From Gammaproteobacteria bacterium (lineage in GTDB: Bacteria; Pseudomonadota; Gammaproteobacteria; Ga0077536): DNA of 64,000 nucleotides. Location: NCBI GenBank assembly GCA_016209015.1, contig JACQWY010000038.1, positions 1 to 64,000 on the forward strand. Reading direction: 5' to 3'. The notes under the pieces were generated by a model, which searched no databases, had not been told where the DNA came from, and saw only the letters and a list, made by a program, of their open reading frames with translations. Made by a program: the position numbers and the translations under genes. Of this stretch, positions 40,842-63,419 are shown piece by piece; the first letter of the stretch is position 1, and every line of letters begins with the position of its first letter.

Positions 40842-43289
40842 TCAGTCCGACGCGCACCAGTGGCGCCAGATGTCCCGGTAAACCCCCTCGAGATCGCGCG
40901 CGAAGGATTCTGCATCGGTCAACGCGGAACTCGCGACCCGCGCTCGCATACCGGCACGACGTGCCGCCAAGCCGGGCAAATCGGCCGCGAGCGCAGCGGC
41001 GAGTCGCACGTATTCGGCTGCGCCGGACACGGCGAACTCCGGCATGCCAGCGGCATGGAGTACGCTGTAGCTCGCGCGCGAGAGAAACGTCTCGCCGATC
41101 AGGGCCACCACCGGCAGCCCCATCCACAGCGCATCGCAGGTCGTCGTGCCGCCGTTGCACGGAAACGGATCGAGAGCGATGTCGACGCGTGAGAAGAGCT
41201 CGAGATAGTCTCGTCGCAGCAGCCGATCGTGAAGAAGAACGCGCCCGGGATTCACGCCGCGCGCCGCGAAATCAGCACGCACGCGGTCCTGCGTTGCGCC
41301 CGCCGGCACCGTGATCATCTCGAGCTCGGCATCCGGAACGGCGCGCAGGACATCCGCCCACAGGTCCACGACCCGCGGGCCGATTTTCGCGAAGTAGTTC
41401 AGCGAGACGAAGCGCACATGGCCGCGTTCGAGCGCGGGCAGGGGTCCGACGTCCGGCATGTCGGCGAGCGGCTGATAACACCACAACGTGTTCGGCAGCC
41501 GCAGCAGGTCCTCCGTGTAGTAGCGCTCGCTCTGCCCGGGCGGCTCGGCCCGTGCATCAGTCAGACGGTAATCGACCGTGTCGAGGCCGGTCGTGGCGGG
41601 GTAACCGAGGTAAGCCACTTGGAGCGGCGCCGGTTTGCGTGCCAGGACGAGCAGCCGGCTGTTCGCAGTGTGCCCGGCGAGATCCACGAGGATGTCGATG
41701 CCATCGGCGCGGATCTGTGCATCGAGCGCCTCGTCGCTCATCCCCACGGTACTGTGCCAGTGATCGCACGAGGGTCGGAGCTTCGCGGTGACCGCATCGG
41801 GAAACGGCACTTCGGCATAGGCATGGACTTCGACTGCCTCGCGATGATGATGGCGAAACAGCGGTTCGACGAAGAACGCGCAGGCATGTGCCCGAAAATC
41901 CGGGGAGAGGTAGCCGATTTTCAGCCGGCGATTCGGATCGCGCTCGTTTGCATGGGAAGGGACACCCGGGGCGAGGTGTGCCGCATGGCGCACGTTGAAA
42001 TCGCGATGTCGATCGAAGATTTCCTGTTGTGACATCCCGTCGACGAACGCGAGTGTGAAGAGCAGATTGCTGTGCGCGGCGGCATAATCCGGCCGGATCT
42101 CCAGCGCGCGTCGGAAGGATTCGGTGGCGACTTCCAGGCGCCCCTGGTTCTTGTAGACGTTCCCCAGATTGTTGTAAGCCTCCGCGAAATGCGGTCGCTC
42201 CCGAATCGCCGCCTGGAGGTGGCCGATCGCCTCGGCGTGATGTCCCTGTTCAGTCAGCACGACCGCGAGATTGTTGTACGCTTCGGGAAGCGCCGGTTTC
42301 AGCTCGAGCGCACGTGAGAAGCAGCGCTTGGCCTGCTCGAGATCGCCGCTCAGCTTGAAGATGTTGCCCAGATTGAGTTCCGCCTCGGCGAAATCCGGCT
42401 TGAGGATCAGCGCTTCGCAGAAGCAGCGATAGGCCTCGCGTACTTCCCCGCGGCACTGAAGCGCGCTACCGAGGTTGTTCCATGCAGTCACGAGACCGGG
42501 CGCGAGCTCGAGTGCGCGACGGAAGCAGTGCACAGCTTCGTCGATGCGTCCCAGATCCTGCAGCACCACGCCGAGGTTGCTGTGTGCCTCTGCGAAATCG
42601 GGTCGCAACTGGGAAGCGCGGTAATAGCTCGTCAGGGCCTCGGCATGATGCCCTAGCGAGTACTCGGCGAGCCCGAGTTCCTGCCAGACGTCGGCATCGT
42701 TCGCGCCCGTCGCGATCGCATTGCGATAGGACGCAACCGCTTCTTCGCTTCTGCCCTCCTTCGCCAGAATCTGCGCCAGATTGCGGTGAAACTCCGGAAA
42801 TGGCGAGCGCGCGACGGCCTCCCGATAGCAGATGATCGCGGCTTCGCTTTCGCCGCCGTCGCGCAGTGCGTTGCCGAGATTGAACCAGGTCGCGGCGAGC
42901 CCGGGCTCCAGCTCGAGTGCACGCTGATATGCAAGCACCGCCTCTCCGAGGCGTCCGGCTTCGGCGAGCACCATACCGAGATTGCCGTGAGCCGCGGCGA
43001 ATCCCGGCCGGAGCGCGACCGTTCGTTCGAGCAACGCGACCGCCTCGTCGCACCGTCCGAGATCCCGCTCCGCGACGCCGAGCAGATGCAGCGCGTCCAC
43101 TTGATCCGGGTCGCAGACGAGCACCTCACGGTAGGAGGCCGCAGCTTCGGCGATCCGGCCGGCGCGGTGATGCGAGGTGCCGGCCGCAAGCAACTGCTGC
43201 GCTCCGCCCGACTGCGGCTTGGCGCCGCAGCAGTGCTTGTGCTTCTTACCGCTGCCGCAGGGGCAGGGTTCGTTGCGTTCCGTCTTCAT
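40842..43289 (-). CDS. SEC-C/TPR/GT41 protein glycosyltransferase (SPINDLY/OGT family), copy 2
   Basis: 815 residues from ATG 43289, which overlaps the upstream paralogue's stop as ATGA; a longer version from 43331 lies inside that gene. The N-terminal SEC-C zinc motif is NEPCPCGSGKKHKHCC. About eleven TPR units follow (residues ~25-420). The GT41 catalytic region has LKIGYLSPDFRAHACAFFVE, LNYFAKIGPRVVDLWADVL and PCNGGTTTCDALWMGLPVVA. GT41 enzymes attach sugars to Ser/Thr of cytosolic proteins. Placed between nucleotide-sugar genes and fliC, flagellin is the obvious substrate. Sugar donor not determinable. Confidence 0.88.
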   Translation of the reverse strand: MKTERNEPCPCGSGKKHKHCCGAKPQSGGAQQLLAAGTSHHRAGRIAEAAASYREVLVCDPDQVDALHLLGVAERDLGRCDEAVALLERTVALRPGFAAAHGNLGMVLAEAGRLGEAVLAYQRALELEPGLAATWFNLGNALRDGGESEAAIICYREAVARSPFPEFHRNLAQILAKEGRSEEAVASYRNAIATGANDADVWQELGLAEYSLGHHAEALTSYYRASQLRPDFAEAHSNLGVVLQDLGRIDEAVHCFRRALELAPGLVTAWNNLGSALQCRGEVREAYRCFCEALILKPDFAEAELNLGNIFKLSGDLEQAKRCFSRALELKPALPEAYNNLAVVLTEQGHHAEAIGHLQAAIRERPHFAEAYNNLGNVYKNQGRLEVATESFRRALEIRPDYAAAHSNLLFTLAFVDGMSQQEIFDRHRDFNVRHAAHLAPGVPSHANERDPNRRLKIGYLSPDFRAHACAFFVEPLFRHHHREAVEVHAYAEVPFPDAVTAKLRPSCDHWHSTVGMSDEALDAQIRADGIDILVDLAGHTANSRLLVLARKPAPLQVAYLGYPATTGLDTVDYRLTDARAEPPGQSERYYTEDLLRLPNTLWCYQPLADMPDVGPLPALERGHVRFVSLNYFAKIGPRVVDLWADVLRAVPDAELEMITVPAGATQDRVRADFAARGVNPGRVLLHDRLLRRDYLELFSRVDIALDPFPCNGGTTTCDALWMGLPVVALIGETFLSRASYSVLHAAGMPEFAVSGAAEYVRLAAALAADLPGLAARRAGMRARVASSALTDAESFARDLEGVYRDIWRHWCASD

Positions 43290-45457
43290 TGCATCGCCTC
43301 CGCGGTGGTTCTCGCGCACCACCGTTGCCACAGTTGCCGATAGACGGTTTCCACGTCGCGCGCAAAGAGGTCGGCGCGCATCAGCGGCGATTCCCGCAGT
43401 TGCGCACGCATGCTGGCGCGGCGTGCGGCGAGCGCCTGCGGATCCGCGGCAGTCCGGGCCGCGAGAGCTACGTATCCCGCAACGTCGTTCGCCGCGTACT
43501 CGGTCAGGCCCGCGGCGTGCAAGACGCTATAGCTCGCGCGTGACAGGAATGTCTCCCCGATCAGCGCGATCACCGGCAGCCCCATCCACAGCGCATCGCA
43601 GGTCGTGGTACCGCCATTGCAGGGGAAGGGGTCGAGGGCGATGTCGGCCAGTGCGAAAATCTGCAGATAGGCGGGACGCGGCACGCGGCCGTGCAGGATG
43701 AGCCGCGACGGATCGACCTCCAGTCGCGCGAACGCGTCCCGGATTCGAGCCTGGGTCTCGCCCGCCGGTGCACAAATCATCAGGAGGCGCGACCCGGGCA
43801 CGGCTTTCAGGACATCGGCCCAGAGCGCGATGACGCGCGGTCCGATCTTTGCGAAATTATTGAACGAGCCGAACGTAATGCAGCCGTTCGAGAGCGCCGG
43901 CAATGCCGAGACCTCCGGCACGTCATCGAAAGGTTGATAGCACCACAGGGTGTTCGGCAGGCGTACGAGCTCCTCCGTGTACCAACGCTCGCTCGTCCCC
44001 GGCGGTTCGGTACGCGCGTCGGTCAGTCGGTAATCCACGGTGTCCAGACCCGTCGTCGCGGGATAGCCGAGATAGCCGAGCTGGATGGGAGCCGGTTTGC
44101 GGGCCAGCACCAGGAGACGGCTGTTCGCGGTATGTCCGGCGAGGTCGACGAGTATGTCGATGCCATCGGCGCGGATTTGCGCGGCGACCGCTTCGTCGTT
44201 CGCACCGACGGTGCTGCGCCAGTGATCGCACAGACGGCTGAGACGCAGCGTAGTCTCATCCGGCTTCTTCACCTCGGCGTAGGCATACACCTCGACCGCA
44301 TTCCGGTCGTGATGGGCGAGCAGCGGTTCGAGAAAGAACGCACACGCATGTGCGCGCAGATCGGGGGAGATATAGCCGATCTTCAGGCGCCGCCCGGGAT
44401 CCGGGGTGTTCTGATGAGGTTGAATGAATTCCGCAAGCGGAACTCCGTGGCGGGCATTGAACGCCCGGTGGCGCTCGTAGACCTCCTGCTGGGAAACACC
44501 ATCGACGAAGGCGAGCGTGAACAGCAGATTGCTTTCCGCTCCGAGGTTGCCCGGTTTCCCCTCGAGGGCGCGTGCGTAACATGCCATCGCATCCTCCAGT
44601 CGCCCCTGATCCTTCAGCATGTTCCCGAGATTCAGATGGGCCTCGGCAAAATCCGGGGCCAGTTCGATCGCGCGCCTGATCCCGGCAGCGGCCTCTTCGC
44701 TCATGCCGATCTCGTTCAGAACGTTGGCCCGGTTGTAGATGGCGACCGCCCAATCCGGGGCCAGTGCGAGTGCATGGTCGTAGGCAGCAATCGACTCATG
44801 CCAACGGCCCAGGTCCTTGTACAGTGTTCCGAGCCCGTTATAGGCATCGGCGAAATCCGGCCTCTCTTCGAGTGCCAGACGGTACTGATCGAGCGCCTCT
44901 TCCGGCCGCCCCAGACGGCGGAGGACGTTGCCGAAATTCAGATGTGCTTCCGGATAGCGCGGATTGAAACCGAGCGCCTGCCGGAAGGCGAGCTCCGCTT
45001 CCGGCAGGCGCCCGTATTCGGCAAGCGCATTGCCGAGATTGTTGTGGGCTTCGGCGTACTCCGGGCGGAGGCGGATCGCGCGATGGTGGCAGACGATTGC
45101 CTGTTCGAGAGCACCGAGATCGCGTTCGATCGTGCCGAGATTGTTATAAAGCTCCGGGTTGTCCCCGCCGATGTCCAAGGCCAGTCTCAGGAGGTCCCGA
45201 CCTTCGCTCTTGGCGCCGAGCTGATATCGGACGAGACCGAGGCCGTGCAGGGCGCCAGGATGCCGGGGACGCTCCGCAAGCACTCCTCGGTATCCCGCTT
45301 CGGCTTCGGCGAGGAGGCCCTTACCATGCGACGCTGCCGCCACGGCATAGCGTGCCTCGACTGTCGAAGCCGGATCGGGCGCGGCTCGGCTGCCGCAGCA
45401 GATCTTGTACTTGCGCCCGCTACCGCAGGGGCAGGGCGCATTGCGCGAAACTTTCAT
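43286..45457 (-). CDS. SEC-C/TPR/GT41 protein glycosyltransferase (SPINDLY/OGT family), copy 1
   Basis: 723 residues from ATG 45457 (ATG 45466 is close and possible). The start fits a sigma-54 promoter whose transcript begins near 45480. SEC-C is RNAPCPCGSGRKYKICCGSR. About nine TPR units follow (~30-330), and the GT41 domain has RLKIGYISPDLRAHACAFFL, FGSFNNFAKIGPRVIALWA and PCNGGTTTCDALWMGLPVIA. It has fewer TPRs than its tandem paralogue, so the two may read different flagellin sites. First gene of the minus-strand pair. Substrate inferred from location. Confidence 0.88.
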   Translation of the reverse strand: MKVSRNAPCPCGSGRKYKICCGSRAAPDPASTVEARYAVAAASHGKGLLAEAEAGYRGVLAERPRHPGALHGLGLVRYQLGAKSEGRDLLRLALDIGGDNPELYNNLGTIERDLGALEQAIVCHHRAIRLRPEYAEAHNNLGNALAEYGRLPEAELAFRQALGFNPRYPEAHLNFGNVLRRLGRPEEALDQYRLALEERPDFADAYNGLGTLYKDLGRWHESIAAYDHALALAPDWAVAIYNRANVLNEIGMSEEAAAGIRRAIELAPDFAEAHLNLGNMLKDQGRLEDAMACYARALEGKPGNLGAESNLLFTLAFVDGVSQQEVYERHRAFNARHGVPLAEFIQPHQNTPDPGRRLKIGYISPDLRAHACAFFLEPLLAHHDRNAVEVYAYAEVKKPDETTLRLSRLCDHWRSTVGANDEAVAAQIRADGIDILVDLAGHTANSRLLVLARKPAPIQLGYLGYPATTGLDTVDYRLTDARTEPPGTSERWYTEELVRLPNTLWCYQPFDDVPEVSALPALSNGCITFGSFNNFAKIGPRVIALWADVLKAVPGSRLLMICAPAGETQARIRDAFARLEVDPSRLILHGRVPRPAYLQIFALADIALDPFPCNGGTTTCDALWMGLPVIALIGETFLSRASYSVLHAAGLTEYAANDVAGYVALAARTAADPQALAARRASMRAQLRESPLMRADLFARDVETVYRQLWQRWCARTTAEAMQ

Positions 45458-45490
45458 GAGGCCCATCAGCAATGAAGCGTCGGTCGAAAA

Positions 45491-45506
45491 TGCAAGTTCC
45501 AAGCCA
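45491..45506 (-). promoter_or_regulatory. Sigma-54 (-24/-12) promoter of the glycosyltransferase pair
   Basis: The minus strand reads TGGCTT-GGAAC-TTGCA: TGGC of the -24 box, an exact -12 TTGCA followed by a T-run, and GG/GC 10 bases apart. Predicted transcription starts at about 45480, roughly 20 bases before the ATG at 45457. It lies in the 407-base gap 45458-45864, which contains no gene and also carries the fliC promoter in the opposite direction. Confidence 0.75.
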
Positions 45507-45729
45507 CCCGCGGCTGTTCGCCTCCGGCAGAGTGCTCCGCAGCGTTGCGGCCCGCACGGCCGCGGGCCGACGCCGCTTTCCGCGCGGTCTGCACTCGGGC
45601 AAGCGGCCGGAATAGGGTTTCCTGGCGCGCCGGGTTTCCGTCATGCCCGGCACCCGCGCCAGATCTTCGACGCCGAATGGCCGCTTTCGCCAAGCACTTC
45701 ACACCCGCCGACTATTTCGAAAGCAGGCT

Positions 45730-45756
45730 TAAAGTTCCGAAAGGCTCGGCCGCTAC
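45730..45756 (+). promoter_or_regulatory. Sigma-28 promoter of fliC
   Basis: TAAAGTTC (45730-45737) and GCCGCTAC (45749-45756) are separated by exactly 11 bases, matching the FliA consensus TAAAGTTT-N11-GCCGATAA with few mismatches. Transcription would start about 100 bases before the fliC ATG, giving a long leader. A GGAGAA Shine-Dalgarno precedes fliC. Confidence 0.85.
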
Positions 45757-45864
45757 GCGCTGCAGGAGGCGGTAAATATTCGAGCTTCGGATATATCCGC
45801 CAGGTAAAAACAGGCTGGAGATCTCGCCGGGAGCGCGTGCTCGAGCCTTGCTCGGAGAACAGTC

Positions 45865-47361
45865 ATGCCGCAAGTTATCAACACTAACATCTTGTCCTTG
45901 AATGCCCTGCGCAATCTGAACAAGACCCAGAACGACCTCACCACCGCCATTCAGCGCCTCTCGTCCGGCCTGCGAATCAACAGCGCGAAGGACGACGCGG
46001 CGGGCATCGCGGTCGCAACCCGCATGACCACCCAGATCGGTGGTCTGACCACCGCCATCCGCAACGCGAACGACGGCATATCCGTATCGCAGACAGCAGA
46101 AGGCGCGATGGCCGAGATGACAACCAACTTGAACCGCGCACATGACCTCGCGGTGCAAGCAGCGAGCTACAACACCTCTACGGACCGCAACTCGCTGAAC
46201 CAGGAGGTCTCGCAGATTCTCGACGAAATGTCCCGCATCGTGAACCAGACCCGGTTCAACGGCCAGAAGATTCTCGCCGGCGGTTTCAGCGGCGATTTCC
46301 AGGTCGGTTCGTTCGTGAACGAGACGATTAACGTGTCGGTGTCGAACATGTCGCCGACGAACATGGGCGTGTCGACGGAATACTCGACCGTGTCCGGCCT
46401 GACGAATGCTCAGCTCGCCGGCCGCATCGCGGTCTCGTACAACGTTGCCCTCGGCGGCACCGCTTCTCTGAACGGCACGGACCTCGGCAACGCGGTTTCC
46501 GCGCAGACCGTCTCGCAGACGAAGATCGATCAGATCAACGCTGTCACGAGTTCGACGGCCGTCAACGCCTTCGGCTTCGGCAACGGCTTGGTCGGTTCGA
46601 GCTACGCGTCGGCCGGTGTCACGGCCACGGCGATCGACGGCTTGGCCGCCGGTTCGCTGTCCATCAACGGCGTGGCGATCGGCGCAGTCGCGGCGGCGAC
46701 TAGCTTGACCACCGTGGCCGACAACCTCGTCTCCGCCATCAACAGTCTGCAGTCGCAGACCGGCGTGACGGCGGTCAAGGTCGGGACTCCGGACGGTGCG
46801 ACCGCGACCCAGGAAGCGGTGGTGCTCATCAATCGCACGGGGGCGGCCATCAGCTTGACCGCGAACTCCTCGGTGGACGCGGGCATCACGTCCTTCTTCT
46901 CGAACGGCACCACGTCGGTCAGTGCGGGCTCGAACGGCGCCATCGTGCTCAACGGCTCCCTGAATGCGCTCACGCAGACCTACGACGGCTCGACGACCGG
47001 CGCCTCGCTGATCGGCATCAGCAGCTCGACCACGACACTCGCGAACGCGGTACTGTCGGCCCAGAGCGTGACGAGCACGGCCTCAGCCAACCTCTCGATG
47101 CTCGTGTTCGAAAGCGCGCTCGACACCATCAACAGCGAACGTTCGGTGCTCGGTGCGAAACTGAACCGTATGGACGCGGTGGTGCGCAACCTGTCGAATA
47201 CGGTGGAGAACATCACCTCCGCCCGCAGCCGTATCCAGGACGCGGACTTCGCGCAGGAAACGGCGAACATGACGAAAGCGCAGATTCTGCAGCAGGCCGG
47301 TGTGGCGATGGTCGCCCAGGCGAACCAGATCCCGCAGACCGTGCTGTCGCTGCTCAAGTAG
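45865..47361 (+). CDS. fliC: Flagellin FliC
   Basis: 498 residues. The D0/D1 N-terminus (VINTNILSLNALRNLNKTQ, LTTAIQRLSSGLRINSAKDD, AAGIAVATRMTTQIGGL) and C-terminus (NTVENITSARSRIQDADFAQ, ETANMTKAQILQQAGVAMVA) are canonical. The central ~250 residues are Ser/Thr/Ala/Gly-rich and surface exposed, a plausible target for the nearby GT41 enzymes. It is exported unfolded via FliS and forms the filament. It is the only flagellin gene in the window. Confidence 0.98.
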   Translation: MPQVINTNILSLNALRNLNKTQNDLTTAIQRLSSGLRINSAKDDAAGIAVATRMTTQIGGLTTAIRNANDGISVSQTAEGAMAEMTTNLNRAHDLAVQAASYNTSTDRNSLNQEVSQILDEMSRIVNQTRFNGQKILAGGFSGDFQVGSFVNETINVSVSNMSPTNMGVSTEYSTVSGLTNAQLAGRIAVSYNVALGGTASLNGTDLGNAVSAQTVSQTKIDQINAVTSSTAVNAFGFGNGLVGSSYASAGVTATAIDGLAAGSLSINGVAIGAVAAATSLTTVADNLVSAINSLQSQTGVTAVKVGTPDGATATQEAVVLINRTGAAISLTANSSVDAGITSFFSNGTTSVSAGSNGAIVLNGSLNALTQTYDGSTTGASLIGISSSTTTLANAVLSAQSVTSTASANLSMLVFESALDTINSERSVLGAKLNRMDAVVRNLSNTVENITSARSRIQDADFAQETANMTKAQILQQAGVAMVAQANQIPQTVLSLLK

Positions 47362-47388
47362 TAGTCCAGAACTCGCAGGAGTAAGTTG

Positions 47389-47429
47389 GGGCGCATTCGA
47401 CCATAATTGACCTATGATCGGATGCGCCC
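47389..47429. terminator. Hairpin between fliC and flaG (terminator or attenuator)
   Basis: GGGCGCAT (47389-47396) pairs with ATGCGCCC (47422-47429), and the inner sequence can extend the stem through CCATA/TATG around an ATTGACC loop. There is no U-tract after it, so classical intrinsic termination is doubtful. It could stabilise the abundant fliC mRNA 3' end while allowing limited readthrough into flaG-fliD. Confidence 0.5.
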
Positions 47430-47455
47430 ACACTCCGGAGCCAAGGAGTTAGGAC

Positions 47456-47860
47456 ATGAACATCAACGAGTCACTGCAGCGTCTGCCCGAACTCAGGTTC
47501 GACTCGGCTGTCCCGAAGGAAGCCGCTGCAGCGACTGCTGGTACTCGAAGCGCGGACGTGGCGGTTCACGTTCAACCGGCCACTCCCCCACCGCCCAAGG
47601 TGGCCGAGAAAGCGCCGGTCGAACAGAAGGCGCCGAGCAAGGAGGAGCTCGACCGCATCATCAAGAACATCGCCGCGCAGGTGCAATCGTACCAGCGCTC
47701 GCTGCAATTCAGCGTCGACAAAGACAGCGGCGAGGTCGTCGTCAGGATCGTAGATGCGACGACCAAGGAAGTGATTCGCCAGATCCCGTCCCAGGAAATT
47801 CTGGACCTGGCGAATCGCATGAGGTCGATGACGGGTTTGCTGTTGAAGGAACAGGTTTGA
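47456..47860 (+). CDS. flaG: Flagellar protein FlaG
   Basis: 134 residues, start ATG 47456 after AAGGAG. The N-terminal ~65 residues are Pro/Ala-rich and variable. The C-terminal FlaG domain begins DRIIKNIAAQVQSYQRSLQF and continues RQIPSQEILDLANRMRSM. FlaG modulates filament length in polar flagellates. It lies between fliC and fliD, as in Pseudomonas and Vibrio. Confidence 0.92.
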   Translation: MNINESLQRLPELRFDSAVPKEAAAATAGTRSADVAVHVQPATPPPPKVAEKAPVEQKAPSKEELDRIIKNIAAQVQSYQRSLQFSVDKDSGEVVVRIVDATTKEVIRQIPSQEILDLANRMRSMTGLLLKEQV

Positions 47861-47942
47861 ACGGCACTGTGCGGCGCGCCGGGTCGGATGCCAGAGACTG
47901 GTTCCGATTGGCGTGCCGCTCATTCCACCAGGAGTACGTGCC

Positions 47943-49295
47943 ATGAGCATCAGTTCAATCGGCGTCGGTTCCGGACTCGACGTCAAGACTATCGTCGAAC
48001 AACTCGTCGCGCTCGAGCGTCAGCCGGAATCTGCACTGGACAGCCGCGCCTCGGCGCTGCAGGCGGAAATCAGCGCCTTCGGCTCCCTCAAGAGCGCCGT
48101 TTCCAGCTTCAACGACGCCATCACGAATCTCAGCAGCATCTCCAAGTACAAGGTATTCAGGGCCTCGTCCTCGGACAGCACCGTACTCTCCGCTTCCGCC
48201 GACAGTACCGCGGCCAGGGGCTCCTATTCGATGGAGGTCAGCCGCATTGCCGAAACGCATCGCATGGCCTCCCAGACCACGTTCGCCGATTCGGGAACGA
48301 CGACGATCGGGACCAGCGGCGACACGATGACCATTACGGCCGGGACCAGCGCGTTCACGGTCGCAACCGGTGGCCTCACGCTGGCCGGCGTCCGCGACGC
48401 CATCAATAATGCGACCGACAATACCGGCGTGACCGCTTCGCTGGTGCGCGACAACATCGGCTATCGCCTGCTGCTGTCCGCGAACGAGACGGGCAGCGCG
48501 CATGCCGTCACGACGAGCTACAGCGCGGCGGACCCGTTCTCGATGCAAACCCTCAACACGGATCGTGATCAGAGCGGTTCTTTCACGCCGGTGGACCTCG
48601 ACGCGGCAGTGAAGCTCGAGGGACAGTTCGACATCACGAGCAGTTCGAATGCCCTCACGGACGCCGTGCAAGGGGTGACCATCAATCTGCTGAAAGCCGG
48701 CACGACGACTTTGACGGTCGATCGCGATACGGCATCGGTGCAGAGCTCCATCCAGAACTTCGCCTCCGCCTACTCCGCGCTCGTCAGCGTCATCGGGAAG
48801 CTGGCGAATGGCGATCTCAGTTCCGAGAAGCCCGCGCTGTACAGCCTGGAATCGCAGCTCCGCGGGATCCTCAATACGAACACCACCGGCACCGGCACGT
48901 TCGCCAACATCTTCGAAATCGGCGCGTCCACCTCGAAGACCGGTTCGCTCACGGTCGACAGCACCATGCTGACGAACGCCCTGAACAAGGATTTCAATTC
49001 CGTCGCCGATCTGTTCGCGAATGCGAGCAGTGGGCTTGCGGTACGGCTGAAGGATCTCGCGACGCAGTACATGAGCACCGGCGGCCCGATCGACGGTCGT
49101 ACGCAGGGCTTGAGCACGCAGATCCGAGACCTCGCCGCCCGCAGAGCCCGCATCGAGCAGCATGCCCTGGCGATGCAGGACATCTACACGAAGCAGTACA
49201 CGGCCCTCGACACGCTGGTCTCGCAGCTGAAGACGACGGGTAATTACCTGACCCAGCAAATCAGTCTGATGAACAAGTCGGCCATCTCCGGATAA
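47943..49295 (+). CDS. fliD: Flagellar filament cap protein FliD
   Basis: 450 residues from ATG 47943. The N-terminal signature is SSIGVGSGLDVKTIVEQLVA. Coiled-coil ends and a variable centre fit FliD, and the C-terminal domain has IRDLAARRARIEQHALAMQD and YTALDTLVSQLKTTGNYLTQ. FliD forms the pentameric or hexameric cap that folds flagellin at the filament tip, and its chaperone is the FliT candidate at 35.6 kb. Confidence 0.96.
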   Translation: MSISSIGVGSGLDVKTIVEQLVALERQPESALDSRASALQAEISAFGSLKSAVSSFNDAITNLSSISKYKVFRASSSDSTVLSASADSTAARGSYSMEVSRIAETHRMASQTTFADSGTTTIGTSGDTMTITAGTSAFTVATGGLTLAGVRDAINNATDNTGVTASLVRDNIGYRLLLSANETGSAHAVTTSYSAADPFSMQTLNTDRDQSGSFTPVDLDAAVKLEGQFDITSSSNALTDAVQGVTINLLKAGTTTLTVDRDTASVQSSIQNFASAYSALVSVIGKLANGDLSSEKPALYSLESQLRGILNTNTTGTGTFANIFEIGASTSKTGSLTVDSTMLTNALNKDFNSVADLFANASSGLAVRLKDLATQYMSTGGPIDGRTQGLSTQIRDLAARRARIEQHALAMQDIYTKQYTALDTLVSQLKTTGNYLTQQISLMNKSAISG

Positions 49296-49699: not shown

Positions 49700-51460
49700 A
49701 TGAATGGACCCGCCGATTCCTTCAACCGCAAGACCTGGGGTCGTTGCGCGGCACACATCAACGTCTTCGCCGGGTCTTCCGACGTCGGGACCAAGGCGAA
49801 AGTCATGTCACTCCTGCTCGTCGCGCTGCTGCTCGGGATCAACGGGCTGAACGTGCTCAACAGCTATGTCGGTCGCGACTTCATGACTGCCATCGCGAAC
49901 CGTGACCAGCTCGGCTTCCTGCGCCAGGCCGTGTTCTGGCTGGGTGTGTTCGCGAGCGCGACCCTCGTCGCGGTTTTCGCCCGTTACTTCGAGGAACGCC
50001 TGGGCCTGCTGTGGCGCAACTTCTCGACGCGCCGGGTTCTGGGCGGTTACATGACGAATCGCACGTACTACCGCCTCGCCGCGGCTGGTGAGATCGAAAA
50101 CCCCGACCAGCGCATCGCCGACGACATCAGGACGTTCACGACGACCACCCTCTCCTATCTCATCATGCTGCTCAACGGCAGCATCACGGCCGTCGCATTT
50201 TCGGGAGTGCTGTGGTCCATCAGTCCGTTGCTGCTCATCGTCGCCGTCGCTTACGCGGCTGCCGGTTCCTTCCTCACGGTCGGGCTCGGCGGACCGCTGA
50301 TGAGGCTCAACTTCCAGCAGCTCGACAAGGAAGGCAAATTCCGAACGAACCTCGTTCACGTCAAAGAGAACACCCACCTCGTCGCCATCTCGCAGCGCGA
50401 AGGCTATCTCTGCGGCCGTCTCATGGGCCATCTCTCCGATCTGACCGCGAATTTCGAGCGCATCATCCGGGTCAACCGCAACGTCGGCTTCTTCACGACC
50501 GGCTACAACTGGCTCATCCAGCTCATACCGATCGTCATCATCGCGCCGCTCTACATGGGCGGTGCGGTCGAATTCGGTGTCGTAACGCAGGCCGCCGCCG
50601 CATTCATGCAACTCGTCGGCGCCTTCTCGCTGATCGTCACCCAGTTCCAGTCCATCTCCTCCTTCGCTGCAGTCGTCGCGCGCATGGACGCGCTGGTGAC
50701 CGCGATCGAGGACGGTGCCGAGGACACGCACCCCGGTGTCGCAACCGTCGAGGACGAGCATCGCGTCGCCTTCGTAAACCTGAGCCTGCAGGCACCGGGG
50801 CAGAATCGCCTCCTCGTGCGCGATCTCACTTTCGAGCTCGGCGAAGCGCGTCGCGTGCTGGTGCTCGGCAGTGACGAGACGGCCGTCTCCGCGCTGTTCC
50901 GCGCCGCGGCGGGTCTGTGGATTGCGGGCTCCGGAACGATCGTGCGGCCGTCTTTCGATCACATCATGTTCCTCTCCGAACGCCCCTACCTGCCGCCCGG
51001 CCCCTTGAACGATCTGCTCCTGCGGCCACGCCGCGCCGACTGCGGTGTCCACCTCGATCATCAACCCGAGCGCCGGCGGAGCCATCAGCCGGGCGGTCAG
51101 CGCTTCCCCGAAACCCGCGTGAAGGACGTACTCGGCCTGCCCGGGATCGGGCCGCTGCTCGAGCGGGTCAGCGCGCTGCAGATCGATCACGAATGGGATA
51201 CCGTGCTCACGCTCGGCGAGCAGCAGCTCCTCGTGTGTGCACGTCTGCTGCTCGCCGCGCCGCACTTCGCGTTTCTCGAACGACCGAGCACGACGCTCGA
51301 AGGCGAGCCTCTCGACGAAGTGCTGCGCACCTTGCGCTCCCACGCCATCGGTTACGCCGTGTTCGAGCAGGAAGCGACGAATCTCGAGCCCTACGACACC
51401 ATCCTCGAGTTGCTCCCGGGTGGCGCGTGGAACGTCCGCCGCCTGGACACGGCCGCATGA
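49700..51460 (+). CDS. SbmA/BacA-like transporter with a degenerate ABC ATPase domain
   Basis: 586 residues. The N-terminal ~340 residues carry about six membrane helices with SbmA/BacA-family features (SYVGRDFMTAIANRDQ, ENPDQRIADDIRTFTTTTLS). The C-terminal ABC domain keeps its frame (LFRAAAGLW, LTLGEQQLLVCARLLL) but the Walker A reads GSDETAVS with Val-396 for Lys. The Q-loop Gln is Glu-427, Walker B is FLERPST (Glu-527/Arg-528 for Asp-Glu), and no H-loop His is present. ATP hydrolysis is therefore unlikely. SbmA/BacA proteins are proton-driven, so the ATPase domain may be structural. The next gene starts inside its stop (ATGA). Confidence 0.85.
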   Translation: MNGPADSFNRKTWGRCAAHINVFAGSSDVGTKAKVMSLLLVALLLGINGLNVLNSYVGRDFMTAIANRDQLGFLRQAVFWLGVFASATLVAVFARYFEERLGLLWRNFSTRRVLGGYMTNRTYYRLAAAGEIENPDQRIADDIRTFTTTTLSYLIMLLNGSITAVAFSGVLWSISPLLLIVAVAYAAAGSFLTVGLGGPLMRLNFQQLDKEGKFRTNLVHVKENTHLVAISQREGYLCGRLMGHLSDLTANFERIIRVNRNVGFFTTGYNWLIQLIPIVIIAPLYMGGAVEFGVVTQAAAAFMQLVGAFSLIVTQFQSISSFAAVVARMDALVTAIEDGAEDTHPGVATVEDEHRVAFVNLSLQAPGQNRLLVRDLTFELGEARRVLVLGSDETAVSALFRAAAGLWIAGSGTIVRPSFDHIMFLSERPYLPPGPLNDLLLRPRRADCGVHLDHQPERRRSHQPGGQRFPETRVKDVLGLPGIGPLLERVSALQIDHEWDTVLTLGEQQLLVCARLLLAAPHFAFLERPSTTLEGEPLDEVLRTLRSHAIGYAVFEQEATNLEPYDTILELLPGGAWNVRRLDTAA

Positions 51461-54400
51461 GCGACGGATTCCAGCGCTTCGCGAGGATCGAGCCGCTCGT
51501 CGCGATCGACGGCTGGCAGGCCATCGCACCGGGCCAGACCCGGCTCGTGCTCGCCGCGGTGCCGGCGCCGTCCGGCAGCGGGCTCGGGCTGAGGTTCGAT
51601 TTCGGCGGCGGCGGCGGCTTCGTGGTCGCCCGCCACACCTGCGCGCTCGACCTGCCGGAAGAATTCAGTTTCCGCTTCCTGTTGCGTGGCGAAGCGCCGT
51701 CCAACATCTTCGAGCTCAAGCTCGTCGATGCGAGCGGCCAGAACGTCTGGCGTTTTCGCCGCGAGGCCTGCAGGTTCACCGCGGACTGGCGCGAGATCGT
51801 GGTGCCCGCACGCGATCTGCCGTTCGCCTGGGGCCCGCTCGGCGGCGGACCGCCGCGCGACATCGCGGCCGTCGAGATCGTCATCGCGGCCGGCGACGGC
51901 GGCAGCGGCGAGGTCGACATCGCGGACATCGGCTGGCGCGACGACACCTACCGGCTCACCCCGCGCGCGAGCGCGTCGAGCGCCCTGCCGGGCCATACGC
52001 CCGACGCAGTGGCCGGCGCCACGGCGCCGCCCGGCTGGCGGAGCGTCAGCGCGGGCGAGGAATGGATAGCACTCGATTTCGGCTGTGCCCGCGAGTTCGG
52101 CGCGCTGGTGATCGATTGGGAGGCGGAGCGCGTGGCGCGTGCCTTCGCCGTCGACATCGCGCTGGAGGACAGTGCCTGGTGCACCGCCTACACCGCAGGG
52201 GAGGCCGGGGCGGTACGCAGTGTGGTCATGCTGCCCGACTGCCGCGCCCGTCACGTTCGCGTCCGCTGTCTGGCCGCGGCCTCGGCGCAGGGCTACGGCA
52301 TCTGGCGTCTCGACGTCAGACCCCATGCCTGGGGCGCGTCACGCAACGCGTTCTTCGCCGCGCTCGCCCGCGAGGCACCGACCGGCGACTATCCGAAATA
52401 CCTGCTCGGCGCACAGAGCTTCTGGACGACCGTGGGGGCGCCGGACGGTGGGGCACCCGCGCTCGTCAACGAACAGGGGCTCGTCGAGCTCGGGCGCGGC
52501 GGCCCGACACTCGAAGCCTTCGTGGCGCACGGCGGACGCCTGCACGGTTGGGCGGATTTCGAGTCCACACCGTCACTCGAGGCGGGCTGGATACCGGTCC
52601 CGACACTGCACGCAAGGTGCGGCGGCTTCGATCTCGAGCTCACCGCGTTCGCGACGCATGCTCCGCCTCGCGGCGCGCTCTATGTCGCTTATCGCCTGAT
52701 CAACCGGCGCGAGTCGCCCGAGGATTTCACGCTCTACGCGACGCTCCGCCCGTTCCAGGTCACGCCGACCTGGCAGGCATGGCAGCGCTACGGCGGAGCC
52801 GTCGAGATCTCCGAGCTCGAATTCCGCGATGACGCGCTCGTGGTCGACGGCCGACTTCGCATCGTGCCGCTGACCGCGCCGGCCGGCTGCGGTGCGGCGG
52901 CGTTCGCGCAAGGCTCGATCGTCGATTTTCTCGCGCGCGGCGAGCTTCCCGAATCGCGTCACGTGCGCGATCCCTTCTCCGCGGCGAGCGCCGCCTTCGC
53001 GTTCCCGGCAAGACTCGCGCCGGGCGCGCAGCTCGAAGTCCACTTCGCGATACCGTTCGGCGACGCAGAAGCGCCCGAGACCGTCGCGTCTGCGCGCGCT
53101 GCGCTCCGGCGACGCTGGGACGCGAGTCTCGGCACCTGGAACATCGAGCTGCCGGCGCCGGCGCGCGACCTCGCGCTCGAGCTGCGCACCGCGGCCGCGC
53201 ACATTCTCGTGAACCGCGCGGGGCCCGCGCTGCAGCCCGGCCCCCGCCGCTACACGCGCGCCTGGATCCGCGACGGCGCCATGATGGGCGCGGCACTCGC
53301 GCGACTCGGACTCGCCGCGCCCTTGCGCGACTTCGTGCGCTGGTATGCGCGCGCGCAGGCGGCCGACGGACTGCTGCCGGATTGCCTCGACGAGGAAGGC
53401 GCCGAATGGCTGCCGGAATTCGACTGCTTCGGACAGTTCGTCTTCGCGGTCGCGGAGTACTATCGATTCACGGCCGACCGCGCGTTCCTGCGCGAGATGT
53501 GGCCCGCGCTCCACCGCGCCTTGCGCTGCTTCGAGGGCCTGCGGAGCCGCCGCCTCACCGCGGAGTACGAGAACGGCGACAAAGCGCTCTATCGCGGTCT
53601 GCTTCCGGAATCCATGAGCCACGAAGGCTACATGGCGCATCCCGTGCACGCCTACTGGGACGACTTCTGGGGGCTGCGCGGCCTGAAGGACGCCGTGATG
53701 ATCGCCGAGGCGCTCGGCGAGAGTGCGGCGGCCGCGGATTATGCCGCCCAGACCGCGGCATTGCGTCGGGATCTGCTGCGCTCGATCGCCGCGTGCCAGC
53801 AGCGACACGGCATCGATTTCCTGCCGGGTGCCGCGGAGCTCGGCGACTTCGATCCGGCAGCGACCGCGATCGCCTGGTCGCCGGTCGACGAGGGCGACGC
53901 CCTGCCTCGCGCCGCCGCCGATCGTACTTTCGATCGCTATCTCGCCTTGTTCGAGTCGCGGCTCAGCGGCGACACCTGGACCAACTACAGCGCCTACGAA
54001 GTGCGCATCATCGGCGCCCTGCTGCGCCTCGGCCGCAGGCGCGAGGCGCTCGCGGTGCTGGCCTTCATGCGCGAGGGTCAGCGGCCGGCGGCCTGGCATC
54101 AGTGGCCGGAGATCACCTGGCGCGATCCGCGCGGCCCGAGCTTCCTCGGAGATCTCCCGCACGGCTGGATCAGCGCCGAGTTCATATTCGCCGCGCTCGC
54201 CTCGTTCGCCTACGAGCGCGAAGCCGATCGCAGCCTCGTGCTCGCGGCGGGGGTCGATCCGGCGTGGCTGCGCGACGACGGCATCGCGGTCGACGCGCTG
54301 CCGACACACTATGGTCCGCTGAGTTATTCGATCCGCCCCGAGGGCAGTGGTCTGCGCGTGCGCATCGCGCCGCTGCGCCATCTGCCGCGAGGCGGCGTGG

Positions 54401-54492
54401 TGCTCGCGCTGCCGGCAGCCTCGCTCGATGTGCCCGATCCCGCGCCGCTCACCATCCGCACGCTGCCCGCCGATATGCTGATCGACAACTGA
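51457..54492 (+). CDS. Large discoidin/six-hairpin glycosidase-like protein
   Basis: 1011 residues from ATG 51457; longer upstream starts lie inside the transporter gene. Residues ~1-155 look like a jelly-roll carbohydrate-binding domain (FSFRFLLRGEAPSNIFELKL). Residues ~195-290 resemble an F5/8 discoidin domain. A beta-sandwich follows (~300-570). Residues ~600-900 form an (alpha/alpha)6-barrel region with YTRAWIRDGAMMGAALARLG and LPEFDCFGQFVFAVAEYYR. There is no signal peptide, so it is probably cytosolic. It likely hydrolyses or rearranges an oligosaccharide together with the GH94 enzyme encoded next. Exact activity unknown. Confidence 0.75.
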   Translation: MSDGFQRFARIEPLVAIDGWQAIAPGQTRLVLAAVPAPSGSGLGLRFDFGGGGGFVVARHTCALDLPEEFSFRFLLRGEAPSNIFELKLVDASGQNVWRFRREACRFTADWREIVVPARDLPFAWGPLGGGPPRDIAAVEIVIAAGDGGSGEVDIADIGWRDDTYRLTPRASASSALPGHTPDAVAGATAPPGWRSVSAGEEWIALDFGCAREFGALVIDWEAERVARAFAVDIALEDSAWCTAYTAGEAGAVRSVVMLPDCRARHVRVRCLAAASAQGYGIWRLDVRPHAWGASRNAFFAALAREAPTGDYPKYLLGAQSFWTTVGAPDGGAPALVNEQGLVELGRGGPTLEAFVAHGGRLHGWADFESTPSLEAGWIPVPTLHARCGGFDLELTAFATHAPPRGALYVAYRLINRRESPEDFTLYATLRPFQVTPTWQAWQRYGGAVEISELEFRDDALVVDGRLRIVPLTAPAGCGAAAFAQGSIVDFLARGELPESRHVRDPFSAASAAFAFPARLAPGAQLEVHFAIPFGDAEAPETVASARAALRRRWDASLGTWNIELPAPARDLALELRTAAAHILVNRAGPALQPGPRRYTRAWIRDGAMMGAALARLGLAAPLRDFVRWYARAQAADGLLPDCLDEEGAEWLPEFDCFGQFVFAVAEYYRFTADRAFLREMWPALHRALRCFEGLRSRRLTAEYENGDKALYRGLLPESMSHEGYMAHPVHAYWDDFWGLRGLKDAVMIAEALGESAAAADYAAQTAALRRDLLRSIAACQQRHGIDFLPGAAELGDFDPAATAIAWSPVDEGDALPRAAADRTFDRYLALFESRLSGDTWTNYSAYEVRIIGALLRLGRRREALAVLAFMREGQRPAAWHQWPEITWRDPRGPSFLGDLPHGWISAEFIFAALASFAYEREADRSLVLAAGVDPAWLRDDGIAVDALPTHYGPLSYSIRPEGSGLRVRIAPLRHLPRGGVVLALPAASLDVPDPAPLTIRTLPADMLIDN

Positions 54493-54541: not shown

Positions 54542-57500
54542 ATGACCCCCATCGACCGTCCCGCCGCGTTGCCCTTCCGCGCCACGAGCGCTGCCGGTCT
54601 GCGGCTCGAGCTCAACGCGAACGGCTCACTGCGCCGCCTCGATCATGGCGACATCATGCTCAACCTGTTCGTGGGCACGGAAATGGAAGGCGGACCGACG
54701 AACGTCTACCTGCGCCGTCGCCAGGGACGCGCGGCCAGTGCCGCGGTGCCGCTGCTCGGTCCGCACAGTCCGGCGCGCTTCACCTTCGACGGGCAAGGGC
54801 TCACTGCGCACGGCACGTGGCAGGAGCTCGCGTTCGAGCTGCGCCTCGTGCTCGCCGCGGACGCGCCGGCCTGGTTCTGGCATCTCGCAGTCGAGAACAC
54901 CGGCCGTGAAGCCGCGAGCTTCGATCTCCTGTATGCCCAGGATTTCGCACTCGCGCACTACGGCTTCCTGCGCACGAACGAGTTCTACACGAGCCAGTAC
55001 CTCGACCATACGCCGCTCGCGCACGCCGCACGCGGCTGCGTGCTCGCCACGCGCCAGAATCTCGCCATGGGCGGGCGCACCCCGTGGGCCTGCATCGGCT
55101 CGCTCGGCCGCGGCATCGCCTATGCGACGGACGCCCTGCAGTTCCATGGCCTCGCGACGCGCGCGGGTCGGCCGCCTGCGCTGCTGTTCGCGGACTTGCC
55201 GGGAAGACTCCAGCACGAGCACGCCCTCGCCGTACTGCAGGACGAGGCGTGCACGCTCGCGCCCGGCGCCCGGGTCGCGCGCGGCTTCTTCGGCACGTTC
55301 GAAGCCGATCATCCGGCGGCGACAGGTGAGGCGGATCTCGCCATCGCCGATCGCACACTCGCGCTGGCCGAAGCGGCCGCGCCGCCGTCGCGCGCGACCG
55401 CTGGCAAGCCGGCCGCCGCCACGCACTTCAGTCACGCCGCGATGTTCCCCGCGCTCGAGCCCTCGCCTGCCGACGTCGAACGCTTCGCCGGCGCACCGCT
55501 GCACGCAGTCGAGCGCGACGGCGCGACACTGCTGTCCGGCTTCGCGCCGGGCCGGCGGCACGTCGTGGCGCGCGCCAAGGAACTCGGCGTGATGCGGCCG
55601 CACGCGCAGATCCTGCGCACCGGCGACCGCCTCGTGCCCGACGAAGCGGCGCTCACCACCACGGTGTTCATGGCGGGCGTGTTCAATTCCATGCTCACGC
55701 AGGGCCACGTCTCCATCAATCGCTGTCTGTCCGGCGTGCGCAGCTATCTCTCGCTGTTCCGTGCGCAGGGGCAGCGGGTCTTCGTGGAAATCGCCGGCGG
55801 CTGGCAGCTCCTGGACGTGCCCTCGCTCTTCGAGCTCTCGCTCGACGGTTGCCGTTGGCTGTATCTCGCGGACGGCATGGCGATCGAAGTGACGACCCGC
55901 ACGGGCACCGCGACGCACGACGTCGCCTTCGAAATCGCGGTGCGCGCCGGCCCGCCGCGCCGTTTCCTCATCGTGCACCACGTCGCGCTCGGCGGCGATG
56001 ACGGCGTGAATCCCGGCGCGGTGATCCGACGGCGCGAGGGCGAGGAGATCCTGCTCCAGGCCCCGCCGGGATCGGAGATCGACGCACGCTTCCCGGGCGG
56101 CAGTTTCGGCATCCTGCTGGAGCGCGGCACCGTACTCGAACGCATCGGCGGCGATGAACTGCTGTTCGTGGACGGCGTTTCCCGCGACCAGCCGTATCTC
56201 TGCCTGCGGACCGCGCCCGCCGTCGGCGCGGCATTCCGCTACCGCGGACATCTGCTCACGAGCGACGCGGGCATGACGAAGGACTGCGAGGCGTTCTGGC
56301 GCGACATGCTGTGCGGACTGACGCTGCGTGCGCCCGCCGGTTCGCCGCAGGCCGCGCAAATCGACCACCTCAACGAGATCCTGCCGTGGTTCGTCTCGAA
56401 TGCCCTCGTGCACTATCTCGCACCGCGCGGTCTCGAGCAGTTCACCGGCGGCGGCTGGGGCACGCGCGACATCTGCCAGGGCCCGCTCGAGCTGCTGCTC
56501 GCGCTCGGTCATTACGCTTCCGCGCGTGATCTCCTGCTGCGCGTGTTCGCGGCGCAGAATGCCGCGGGCGACTGGCCGCAGTGGTTCACGTTCTTCGACC
56601 GCGAACGCAACATCCGCGCCGGCGATTCGCACGGCGACATCATCTTCTGGCCGCTGCTCGGACTCGCCCGCTACGTCGAGACGACCGGTGACGGCAGCGT
56701 GTTGGACGACACCCTGCCCTATCACCATGCCGAGGGGCCGGCGCGCGCCGAGCACACCAGCCTGCGCGAGCATCTGGATCGCGCGCTCGGCGTCATCGAA
56801 TCACGCCTCGTCCCCGGCACCGCGCTCATCGCCTACGGCCACGGCGACTGGAACGATGCAATGCAGCCCTACGACGCCGCGATGCGCGAGAACCTCTGCA
56901 GCTCGTGGACGGTGACCCTGCACTTCCAGACCCTGAACGCGCTCGCGCGCGCCGCCGGCCTGCTCGGCCGCGACGCCGACGCCGCCCGCTACACGGCCCG
57001 CGCGGCCGAGACCTACGCGGACTTCCAGCGCCTGCTCGTCGTCGACGGCGTCACCGCGGGCTTCGCCTGGTTCAAGCCGGGCGGCAGCCTCGACTACCTG
57101 CTCCATCCACGCGACCGGACGACCGGGCTCACTTACAGCGCGCTGCCGATGATCCACGCCGCGGCGAACGATCTGTACACGCCGGAGCAGGTCCGCGCGC
57201 ACCACGATCTGATCCGGGAGCACCTGCGCGGCTGCGACGGCGTGCGCCTGTTCGATCGCCCGCTGCCCTACCGGGGCGGTTTGCAGCGACAGTTCCAGCG
57301 TGCGGAGAGCGCGGCGTTCTTCGGCCGCGAGATCGGGCTGATGTACACGCATGCCCACCTGCGCTGGGCCGAAGCGCTCGCCCACCTCGGCGCGGCCGAC
57401 GAGTTCTTCGCGGCGCTGACGCTCGTCAATCCCATCGATCACTGCGCCAGCGTGCCGGGCGCGACGCGCCGCCAGCTCAACTGCTATTACTCGAGCTCCG

Positions 57501-57922
57501 ACGCCGCGTTCCCGGATCGTTATGCGGCAGCGGCGGACTACGCCCGCGCCCTCACCGGCGAGGTCCCGCTCGATGGCGGCTGGCGTGTCTATTCGAGCGG
57601 CCCGGGCATCGCGACGAACCTCGTCCTGCGCGCCCTGCTCGGTCTGCAGCCGGCGAGCGATGCGCTCGTGATCGATCCCTGCCTGCCTTCCACGCTCGAC
57701 GGTCTGGAAGCGGACCTGGAATTCGGCGGGCACCGCTACACCGTCGTGTACTGCGTGGGCGAGCGCGGCCACGGTGTGGAGGCGCTCGACTTGAACGGCA
57801 CGCCGCTCGCGTTCGAGCGCCTCGCGAATCCCTATCGCCCCGGCGCCGTACGCGTGCCGGCCTCGGATTACGCTGCGCTGCTGCGCTCGGGGGTCAACCG
57901 GCTGCTGGTCAGAATCGGCTGA
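54542..57922 (+). CDS. GH94 family glycoside phosphorylase
   Basis: 1126 residues from ATG 54542 with GAGGAG upstream. An N-terminal beta-sandwich is followed by a helical linker and an (alpha/alpha)6 barrel. The barrel has GGGWGTRDICQGPLELLLAL and the catalytic-acid motif YGHGDWNDAM, where Asp-769 is the first Asp of DWND. GH94 enzymes phosphorolyse beta-linked gluco-oligosaccharides (cellobiose, sophoro- or laminari-type). The length is close to the 1,2-beta-oligoglucan phosphorylase group and shorter than NdvB-type cyclic glucan synthases. Cytosolic, no signal peptide. Confidence 0.85.
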   Translation: MTPIDRPAALPFRATSAAGLRLELNANGSLRRLDHGDIMLNLFVGTEMEGGPTNVYLRRRQGRAASAAVPLLGPHSPARFTFDGQGLTAHGTWQELAFELRLVLAADAPAWFWHLAVENTGREAASFDLLYAQDFALAHYGFLRTNEFYTSQYLDHTPLAHAARGCVLATRQNLAMGGRTPWACIGSLGRGIAYATDALQFHGLATRAGRPPALLFADLPGRLQHEHALAVLQDEACTLAPGARVARGFFGTFEADHPAATGEADLAIADRTLALAEAAAPPSRATAGKPAAATHFSHAAMFPALEPSPADVERFAGAPLHAVERDGATLLSGFAPGRRHVVARAKELGVMRPHAQILRTGDRLVPDEAALTTTVFMAGVFNSMLTQGHVSINRCLSGVRSYLSLFRAQGQRVFVEIAGGWQLLDVPSLFELSLDGCRWLYLADGMAIEVTTRTGTATHDVAFEIAVRAGPPRRFLIVHHVALGGDDGVNPGAVIRRREGEEILLQAPPGSEIDARFPGGSFGILLERGTVLERIGGDELLFVDGVSRDQPYLCLRTAPAVGAAFRYRGHLLTSDAGMTKDCEAFWRDMLCGLTLRAPAGSPQAAQIDHLNEILPWFVSNALVHYLAPRGLEQFTGGGWGTRDICQGPLELLLALGHYASARDLLLRVFAAQNAAGDWPQWFTFFDRERNIRAGDSHGDIIFWPLLGLARYVETTGDGSVLDDTLPYHHAEGPARAEHTSLREHLDRALGVIESRLVPGTALIAYGHGDWNDAMQPYDAAMRENLCSSWTVTLHFQTLNALARAAGLLGRDADAARYTARAAETYADFQRLLVVDGVTAGFAWFKPGGSLDYLLHPRDRTTGLTYSALPMIHAAANDLYTPEQVRAHHDLIREHLRGCDGVRLFDRPLPYRGGLQRQFQRAESAAFFGREIGLMYTHAHLRWAEALAHLGAADEFFAALTLVNPIDHCASVPGATRRQLNCYYSSSDAAFPDRYAAAADYARALTGEVPLDGGWRVYSSGPGIATNLVLRALLGLQPASDALVIDPCLPSTLDGLEADLEFGGHRYTVVYCVGERGHGVEALDLNGTPLAFERLANPYRPGAVRVPASDYAALLRSGVNRLLVRIG

Positions 57923-59212: not shown

Positions 59213-59223
59213 GGCTCGAATCC

Positions 59224-61098: not shown

Positions 61099-61108
61099 GA
61101 TGGTTCTC

Positions 61109-62071: not shown

Positions 62072-62288
62072 GGTTTCGAACTCGGTGCTCCTGCCTTCGC
62101 TATGCACGCCGGGTGCCAAGCGGCCGGTGGATGACCCGGGCGCGAACGGCTTCACATTCGAGAGCTGCCGACGATTCGCCGGCGGCAAAGGCTGCCGCTT
62201 CGAGGCAAGATTCGCCGGAAGTGCCGCGCCTCCGGAGGTCGGCGGCGCGGCTGTGAGCCCGATGGAAAGCGCGGGCCCGGCGGGATAT

Positions 62289-63389: not shown

Positions 63390-63419
63390 GACACTCTCCG
63401 ATCGCATTCGGCTGCGGTG

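Follow-up and report, generated by a model that had tools for sequence, protein, structure and literature searches.

Half transporters of the YddA, BclA and Rv1819c type are ATP-driven and have their ATPase motifs intact (Walker A, the Walker B Glu, the Q-loop Gln and the switch His). Their relative SbmA uses six glutamates for proton-driven transport, and two of these (E203 and E287) are missing from YddA (PMC13316013). SbmA is proposed to have arisen when a membrane domain was separated from its nucleotide-binding domain (NBD), and it is the case used to bridge ATP-driven and gradient-driven transport (PMC13316013). A degenerate nucleotide site is found in the ABC exporter MsRv1273c/72c, in which the intact partner hydrolyses ATP (PMC12038006). 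Cgt, the exporter of cyclic beta-1,2-glucan, and the ABC systems of SOGP/SGL gene clusters are ATP-driven according to the work cited in PMC11842490. When the open-access literature was searched (subscription papers were not covered), no ABC transporter with a fully dead but kept NBD was found described.

The protein analysed here (586 aa) is encoded by a gammaproteobacterial contig (JACQWY010000038.1, GenBank assembly GCA_016209015.1), of which a stretch of 64 000 nucleotides, referred to as the window, was used. The gene and its domains were positioned in the window as follows:

49700..51460, + strand: coding sequence of the dead-NBD transporter, 586 aa, ATG start (open reading frame, Pfam, sequence relatives in the PDB)
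49700..50734, + strand: transmembrane domain (residues 1-345), ABC_membrane_2 (Pfam match to residues 33-284; helices in the model)
50747..51439, + strand: inactive NBD (residues 350-580) (ABC fold in the model and with Foldseek; motif tally)
51026..51109, + strand: NBD insert (about residues 443-470), missing in most homologues and modelled with low confidence

The protein is a full-length ABCD/BclA/YddA-type half transporter. The fusion of a PF06472 membrane domain to an NBD was recovered with Pfam, with the PDB relatives, in the structural model and with Foldseek. In Pfam, ABC_membrane_2 (PF06472, 3.2e-33) outscored SbmA_BacA (PF05992, 2.3e-12), the latter still being above the cut-off. The closest PDB relatives by sequence were ABCD proteins, Rv1819c and ABCD4, and SbmA was a marginal match (E 6e-4). 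The AlphaFold2 model had a mean pLDDT of 85, with values of at least 90 in most NBD blocks except around the lineage-specific insert, and its full-length Foldseek matches were ABCD3, Rv1819c and ABCD1. The insert (about 28 residues, 51026-51109) was present in a similar form in the nearest relative (L013/L032) and was rare elsewhere. A scan for promoters and terminators gave nothing above chance.

The ATPase motifs of the NBD were located by alignment:

50867..50890, + strand: broken Walker A, GSDETAVS (residues 390-397; Val396 at the Lys position) (alignment and motif tally)
50978..50980, + strand: Q-loop position, Gln replaced by Glu427 (alignment and motif tally)
51206..51226, + strand: signature region LTLGEQQ (residues 503-509) (alignment)
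51266..51283, + strand: broken Walker B, FAFLER (residues 523-528; Glu527/Arg528) (alignment and motif tally)

In the P-loop, Gly4 has become Glu, Gly6 Ala and the Lys Val396. Glu427 stands in place of the Q-loop Gln, and Glu527/Arg528 in place of the two Walker B acids; the switch His is lost as well, whereas LTLGEQQ remains. The replacements named in the original prediction (Val-396, Glu-427, Glu-527/Arg-528 and the switch His) were found at the same residue numbers on re-alignment. Eleven landmarks were then scored in each of 82 scorable dead homologues (own family, Methylococcaceae, Rhizobiaceae) and 21 intact relatives. The canonical residue was kept at 1 to 6 of the 11 positions by 79 dead homologues and at all 11 by 20/20 intact relatives; the sequences added to these fitted the split, with three Rhizobiaceae members at 4/11 and one cyanobacterial intact relative at 11/11. 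The catalytic Glu was canonical in 0/79 dead homologues, and likewise in none of the 82, being mostly replaced by Arg. P-loop Gly6 was canonical in 0/79, Gly4 in 1/79 (it is mostly an acidic or amide residue), Gly1 in 71/79 and the Q-loop Gln in 9/79, and the Walker A Ser/Thr was gone in 70/79. The Walker A Lys position was occupied by Lys in 46/79 and by Arg in 21/79 (together 67/79). Thus, none of the dead proteins has the intact motif set of the BclA/YddA/Rv1819c type. Two of the claims made earlier apply in part to the clade. The signature region said to persist is indeed present at residues 503-509 of the 586-aa protein, but its Gly is canonical in just 34/79 dead homologues. As to the recurrence of the replacements, the change of Gly6 to Ala and the loss of the catalytic Glu are clade-wide, but the change of Lys to Val is peculiar to the 586-aa protein. 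Glu427 and Arg528 were also considered as a salt bridge or a covarying pair. This idea was discarded after inspection of the motif table, in which Arg528 accompanies Gln427 in most proteins having that residue, and Asn528 accompanies Glu427 in several.

According to these alignments, the whole clade has lost the residues required for ATP hydrolysis, and probably those required for binding too. Our preferred reading, which we hold with about as much belief as doubt, is that of a homodimeric glucan transporter, independent of ATP and probably coupled to ions, whose ATPase was lost once and whose protein was kept. The Lys or Arg in 67/79 dead homologues counts against it, since some ligand may still bind there. 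Together with the frequent P-loop Gly1, this residue would suit a different arrangement, in which transport is gated or regulated by a nucleotide, or by some other phosphorylated ligand, that binds but is not hydrolysed. Such gating is rather unlikely, given a Gly4 that is mostly acidic or amide, a Gly6 that is never kept, a Ser/Thr lost in 70/79 and a Walker B Glu lost in all. In ABC P-loops, changes of this kind, combined with those in Walker B, should repel nucleotide phosphates and metal.

Dead homologues were found in the family of the source organism (59-48% identity), in another family of the same order, in Methylococcaceae (Methylotetracoccus, Methylolobus) and in Rhizobiaceae. This wider range was obtained by genome searches and from a plasmid collection; the first scan returned mostly Methylococcaceae and understated it. 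A copy in a Myxococcota metagenome-assembled genome (L007) ends before its motifs, at the contig end. Careful trees, for which the membrane domain alone was used, separated the dead proteins from all others by a branch supported at 100/100 (99 in a quick tree). The nearest intact outgroup in the membrane-domain tree was formed by L008 (Verrucomicrobium) and L144 (Methylococcaceae), followed by the cyanobacterial L201 and then by L162/L163. The nearest intact homologues are about 37-38% identical to the 586-aa protein, and the nearest homologues overall are all dead; close homologues with intact motifs, which the original prediction had designated as the sign of a recent loss in this strain only, were looked for and did not appear. 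Up to six matches were counted per genome, and in one genome (G419) one of the six is the intact L144. The trees are most simply explained by one inactivation event, after which the gene spread and was duplicated. The position of SbmA on the quick tree is not settled (its branch is long), and no descent of SbmA from the dead clade is claimed.

The dN/dS of the dead NBD was mostly 0.03-0.19 in close pairs, similar to that of the membrane domain and of intact NBDs, and by this measure strong purifying selection acts on the dead domain. The earlier view that the replacements do not follow the pattern of random decay is borne out by the existence of one dead clade, by this selection and by the confident ABC fold. 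A recent pseudogene or a sequencing artefact, as an explanation of the 586-aa open reading frame, deserves almost no credence. Decay does happen in the clade, as seen in the copy of Rhizobium sp. WYJ-E13 (L200:5902-7360), which is split over several frames and is a probable pseudogene. A recent pseudogene is ruled out here by the open frame, by an inactivation common to 82 scorable proteins from several families and two classes, by the low dN/dS and by the presence of dead copies in complete genomes.

The acidic residues of the membrane domain were compared with the glutamate ladder of SbmA:

49991..49996, + strand: codons of Glu98 and Glu99; Glu98 is present in 83/83 dead proteins and otherwise in the two nearest intact sisters only
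50120..50122, + strand: codon of Asp141, at the position of E193 in the SbmA ladder; an acid in 83/83 dead and 21/22 intact proteins
50324..50326, + strand: codon of Asp209; invariant across the dead proteins (83/83) and found in 0/22 intact ones
50330..50332, + strand: codon of Glu211, equivalent of the SbmA ladder residue E276 (alignment with SbmA)

The suggestion that the protein may be proton-driven like SbmA/BacA divides in two. Independence from ATP follows well, but a ladder of the SbmA type is mostly absent from the dead clade by alignment. Two of its six positions are acidic (E193 and E276), and both are also acidic in nearly all intact, ATP-driven relatives. No dead protein (0/83) has an equivalent of E203, E287 or E378, and the E269 position is acidic in 4/83. 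Since four of the six ladder glutamates are missing, the known proton path does not apply. Ion coupling may still take place because the dead clade has acids of its own (E98, E99, D209), D209 lying two residues from Glu211. From the alignment we infer that E98 and D209 would belong to a coupling arrangement other than that of SbmA; D209 could also be a lineage marker without a coupling role. The more specific proposal of an independent conversion of an ATP-driven ABC transporter into an ion-coupled secondary transporter, with the NBD killed but kept, Asp209 taking part in coupling and beta-1,2-glucan as the traffic, is tentative, and we doubt it somewhat more than we believe it.

In the preferred reading, an ATP-driven half transporter resembling YddA, BclA and Rv1819c (ABCD-like) would have lost its ATPase once, in the ancestor of the clade, and the descendants would have kept the whole protein. 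Alternating access would be performed by a homodimer without ATP. The driving force would be a gradient of H+ or of another ion, used through the clade acids (D/E141, E211, D209, E98/E99), or the gradient of the substrate itself. The two dead NBDs, docked together, may act as a structural clamp or a regulatory element on the membrane domain.

The conservation of the dead NBD bears on this last point. Mean identity is higher in the membrane domain than in the dead NBD (0.57 vs 0.45). The surroundings of the Q-loop (PERPYLPPGTLR) are among the best-kept parts of the NBD, and some residues, R416, Y552 and Y565 among them, are fixed differently from the YddA-type relatives. In ABC transporters, the surroundings of the Q-loop lie by the coupling helices. 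Both the faster divergence of the dead NBD and the preservation of this region would agree with a passive remnant, retained for the folding of a membrane domain that transports by facilitated diffusion. Many surface motifs and clade-specific residues of the NBD are conserved too, and the absolute fixation of D209 hints at more than passive retention; we regard a passive remnant as improbable.

A dead half could also be the degenerate member of an ATP-driven heterodimer, as in MsRv1273c/72c (PMC12038006): it would contribute the signature motif, and an intact PF06472 partner would bring Walker A/B and hydrolyse ATP. The LTLGEQQ kept in the 586-aa protein and the intact YddA-type PF06472 paralogue (L010) in its source genome would agree with such a pair, and the fraction of dead homologues with a canonical signature Gly (34/79) speaks against it. 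The partner search, which covered halves of the PF06472 family, identified seven complete single-contig genomes holding dead PF06472 proteins only: one gene each in G415 and G435, and two each in G170, G403, G443, G456 and G459. A heterodimer of a degenerate and an intact PF06472 half is therefore rejected as a general arrangement, and as an explanation we consider it highly unlikely; in the source genome, with its intact paralogue, such a pair may still form.

Downstream of the transporter gene, two genes for carbohydrate enzymes were found:

51457..54492, + strand: GH15-like (alpha/alpha)6-barrel enzyme with an F5/8-type module, 1011 aa; its start overlaps the transporter stop (ATGA)
54542..57922, + strand: SOGP-type GH94 gene; SOGP_N and SOGP_2nd above cut-off; 5h3z, 6.7e-172

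The two enzyme genes are separated by 49 bases. The GH94 protein matched SOGP_N and SOGP_2nd above the Pfam cut-off and SOGP_4th below it. It also matched the 1,2-beta-oligoglucan phosphorylase 5h3z over its full length (6.7e-172), with GDWND/GDWDD aligned, and is SOGP-type by sequence, this activity being predicted. The GH15-like protein comprises an (alpha/alpha)6 barrel, beta-sandwich domains and the F5/8 module. Its closest folds were dextran dextrinase, exo-arabinanase, cellobiose phosphorylase and glucodextranase, and its GH family was left unspecified.

The operon of the window lies inside a flagellar region (40845-49292 and 58010-63407), with flagellin and FliD on one side and FlgL-like, FlgK, FlgJ-like and FlgI proteins on the other. 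Two TPR-GT41 (O-GlcNAc-transferase-like) genes next to flagellin are suggestive of flagellin glycosylation. The flagellar surroundings were dismissed as a functional clue, the tested flagellar genes not being found in the stretches retrieved around the operons of five relatives of the same family.

The GH15-like gene adjoins the dead transporter in the source family, on the Myxococcota contig (L007:3171-7793, where it directly precedes a dead-clade membrane domain cut by the contig end) and in several separate Methylococcaceae lineages. Among 201 genomes of the order of Methylococcaceae, the dead transporter was present in 37, including 23/23 genomes with GH94 and 24/25 with the GH15-like gene (Fisher p about 1e-20, uncorrected for ancestry, by which the co-occurrence is confounded). 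In the source order, the transporter and GH94 were found in the same 6/36 genomes, five of which have the GH15-like gene and the sixth a fragment of it at a contig end. In Rhizobiaceae, the neighbour is a PF10091 protein whose best matches are the GH144 beta-1,2-glucanases XcSGL (8xul, 2.6e-110) and CpSGL (5gzh); in one instance, an NdvB-like GH94 protein is encoded beside it. A functional link between the transporter and glucan enzymes is supported, at the level of genomes, by operon structure, recurrence and co-occurrence. Phosphoketolase (XFP) genes were seen near dead transporters of Methylococcaceae and Rhizobiaceae (L003, L113, L115, L145, L164, L165, L197), which suggests a route from glucan to acetyl phosphate.

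The convergence of the rhizobial and the other loci on one chemistry offers the best clue to the cargo, which would be a beta-1,2-linked glucan or oligosaccharide. Most Methylococcaceae paralogues of the dead transporter are not beside glucan enzymes, and many stand alone; seven genomes with a dead transporter, six of them from one genus, have neither GH94 nor the GH15-like gene. For these reasons, the cargo may differ among paralogues. No signal sequence was recognized by eye in the enzymes of the window or in the rhizobial GH144-type enzymes. A signal-peptide-like start was observed in the GH15-like neighbour at four Methylococcaceae loci (L084, L088, L092, L100). For the preferred transporter, the cargo would most likely be a glucan or gluco-oligosaccharide with beta-1,2 linkages, on which the SOGP-type GH94 and GH15-like enzymes, or in rhizobia the GH144-type enzyme, would act in the cytosol. 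As for direction, the lack of a recognizable signal sequence in the enzymes of the window and in the rhizobial enzyme slightly favours import with subsequent phosphorolysis.

The same operon and its recurrence could reflect a membrane scaffold or sensor that is no longer a transporter, the dead NBD holding cytosolic glucan enzymes at the membrane; the purifying selection on that domain would agree with such a role. The original prediction had likewise considered the domain as a regulatory or docking platform for the two enzymes. The docking of enzymes is not the general reason for keeping the dead NBD, since seven genomes are without both enzymes and the neighbouring enzyme of one subclade has a signal-peptide-like start. 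The membrane domain is, moreover, the better conserved of the two domains, and a scaffold without transport is unlikely.

The preferred transporter can be compared with four groups of known systems. With Rv1819c, BclA, YddA and the human ABCD proteins, the dead clade shares domain order and fold, and these systems provide the best sequence and structure matches as well as the nearest intact relatives; it differs from them by the absence of the residues for ATP, by the clade-specific D209 and by the link to glucan enzymes. Catalytic residues of the NBD are also lost in exporters of the MsRv1273c/72c type (PMC12038006), whereas the dead clade occurs in complete genomes without an intact partner of the PF06472 family. 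Cgt and the ABC systems of SOGP/SGL clusters resemble the dead clade in being associated with beta-1,2-glucan enzymes (SOGP, GH144-type, NdvB-like), and the dead clade suggests a transporter for beta-1,2-glucan metabolism. SbmA/BacA (SLiPT), proton-driven and without an NBD, has a homologous membrane domain (PF05992), acidic E193 and E276 positions and the independence from ATP that is predicted here. Unlike SbmA/BacA, the dead clade keeps the full NBD fold and does not conserve E203, E269, E287 and E378. One dead protein of R. binae (WP_343229143.1, L197:5797-7545) is annotated as 'SbmA/BacA-like family transporter' with the GO term peptide transport, a name that may mislead. The requirements for an ABC transporter to work without ATP would be directly testable in culturable methanotrophs and rhizobia. 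Separation from the NBD is the explanation given for the origin of SbmA (PMC13316013). The dead clade shows another outcome, in which the motor dies in place and stays under selection, with intact sisters and a new fixed acid. If the conversion to an ion-coupled transporter proposed above is true, it constitutes a second route from an ABC transporter to a secondary transporter, besides the loss of the NBD taken by SbmA.
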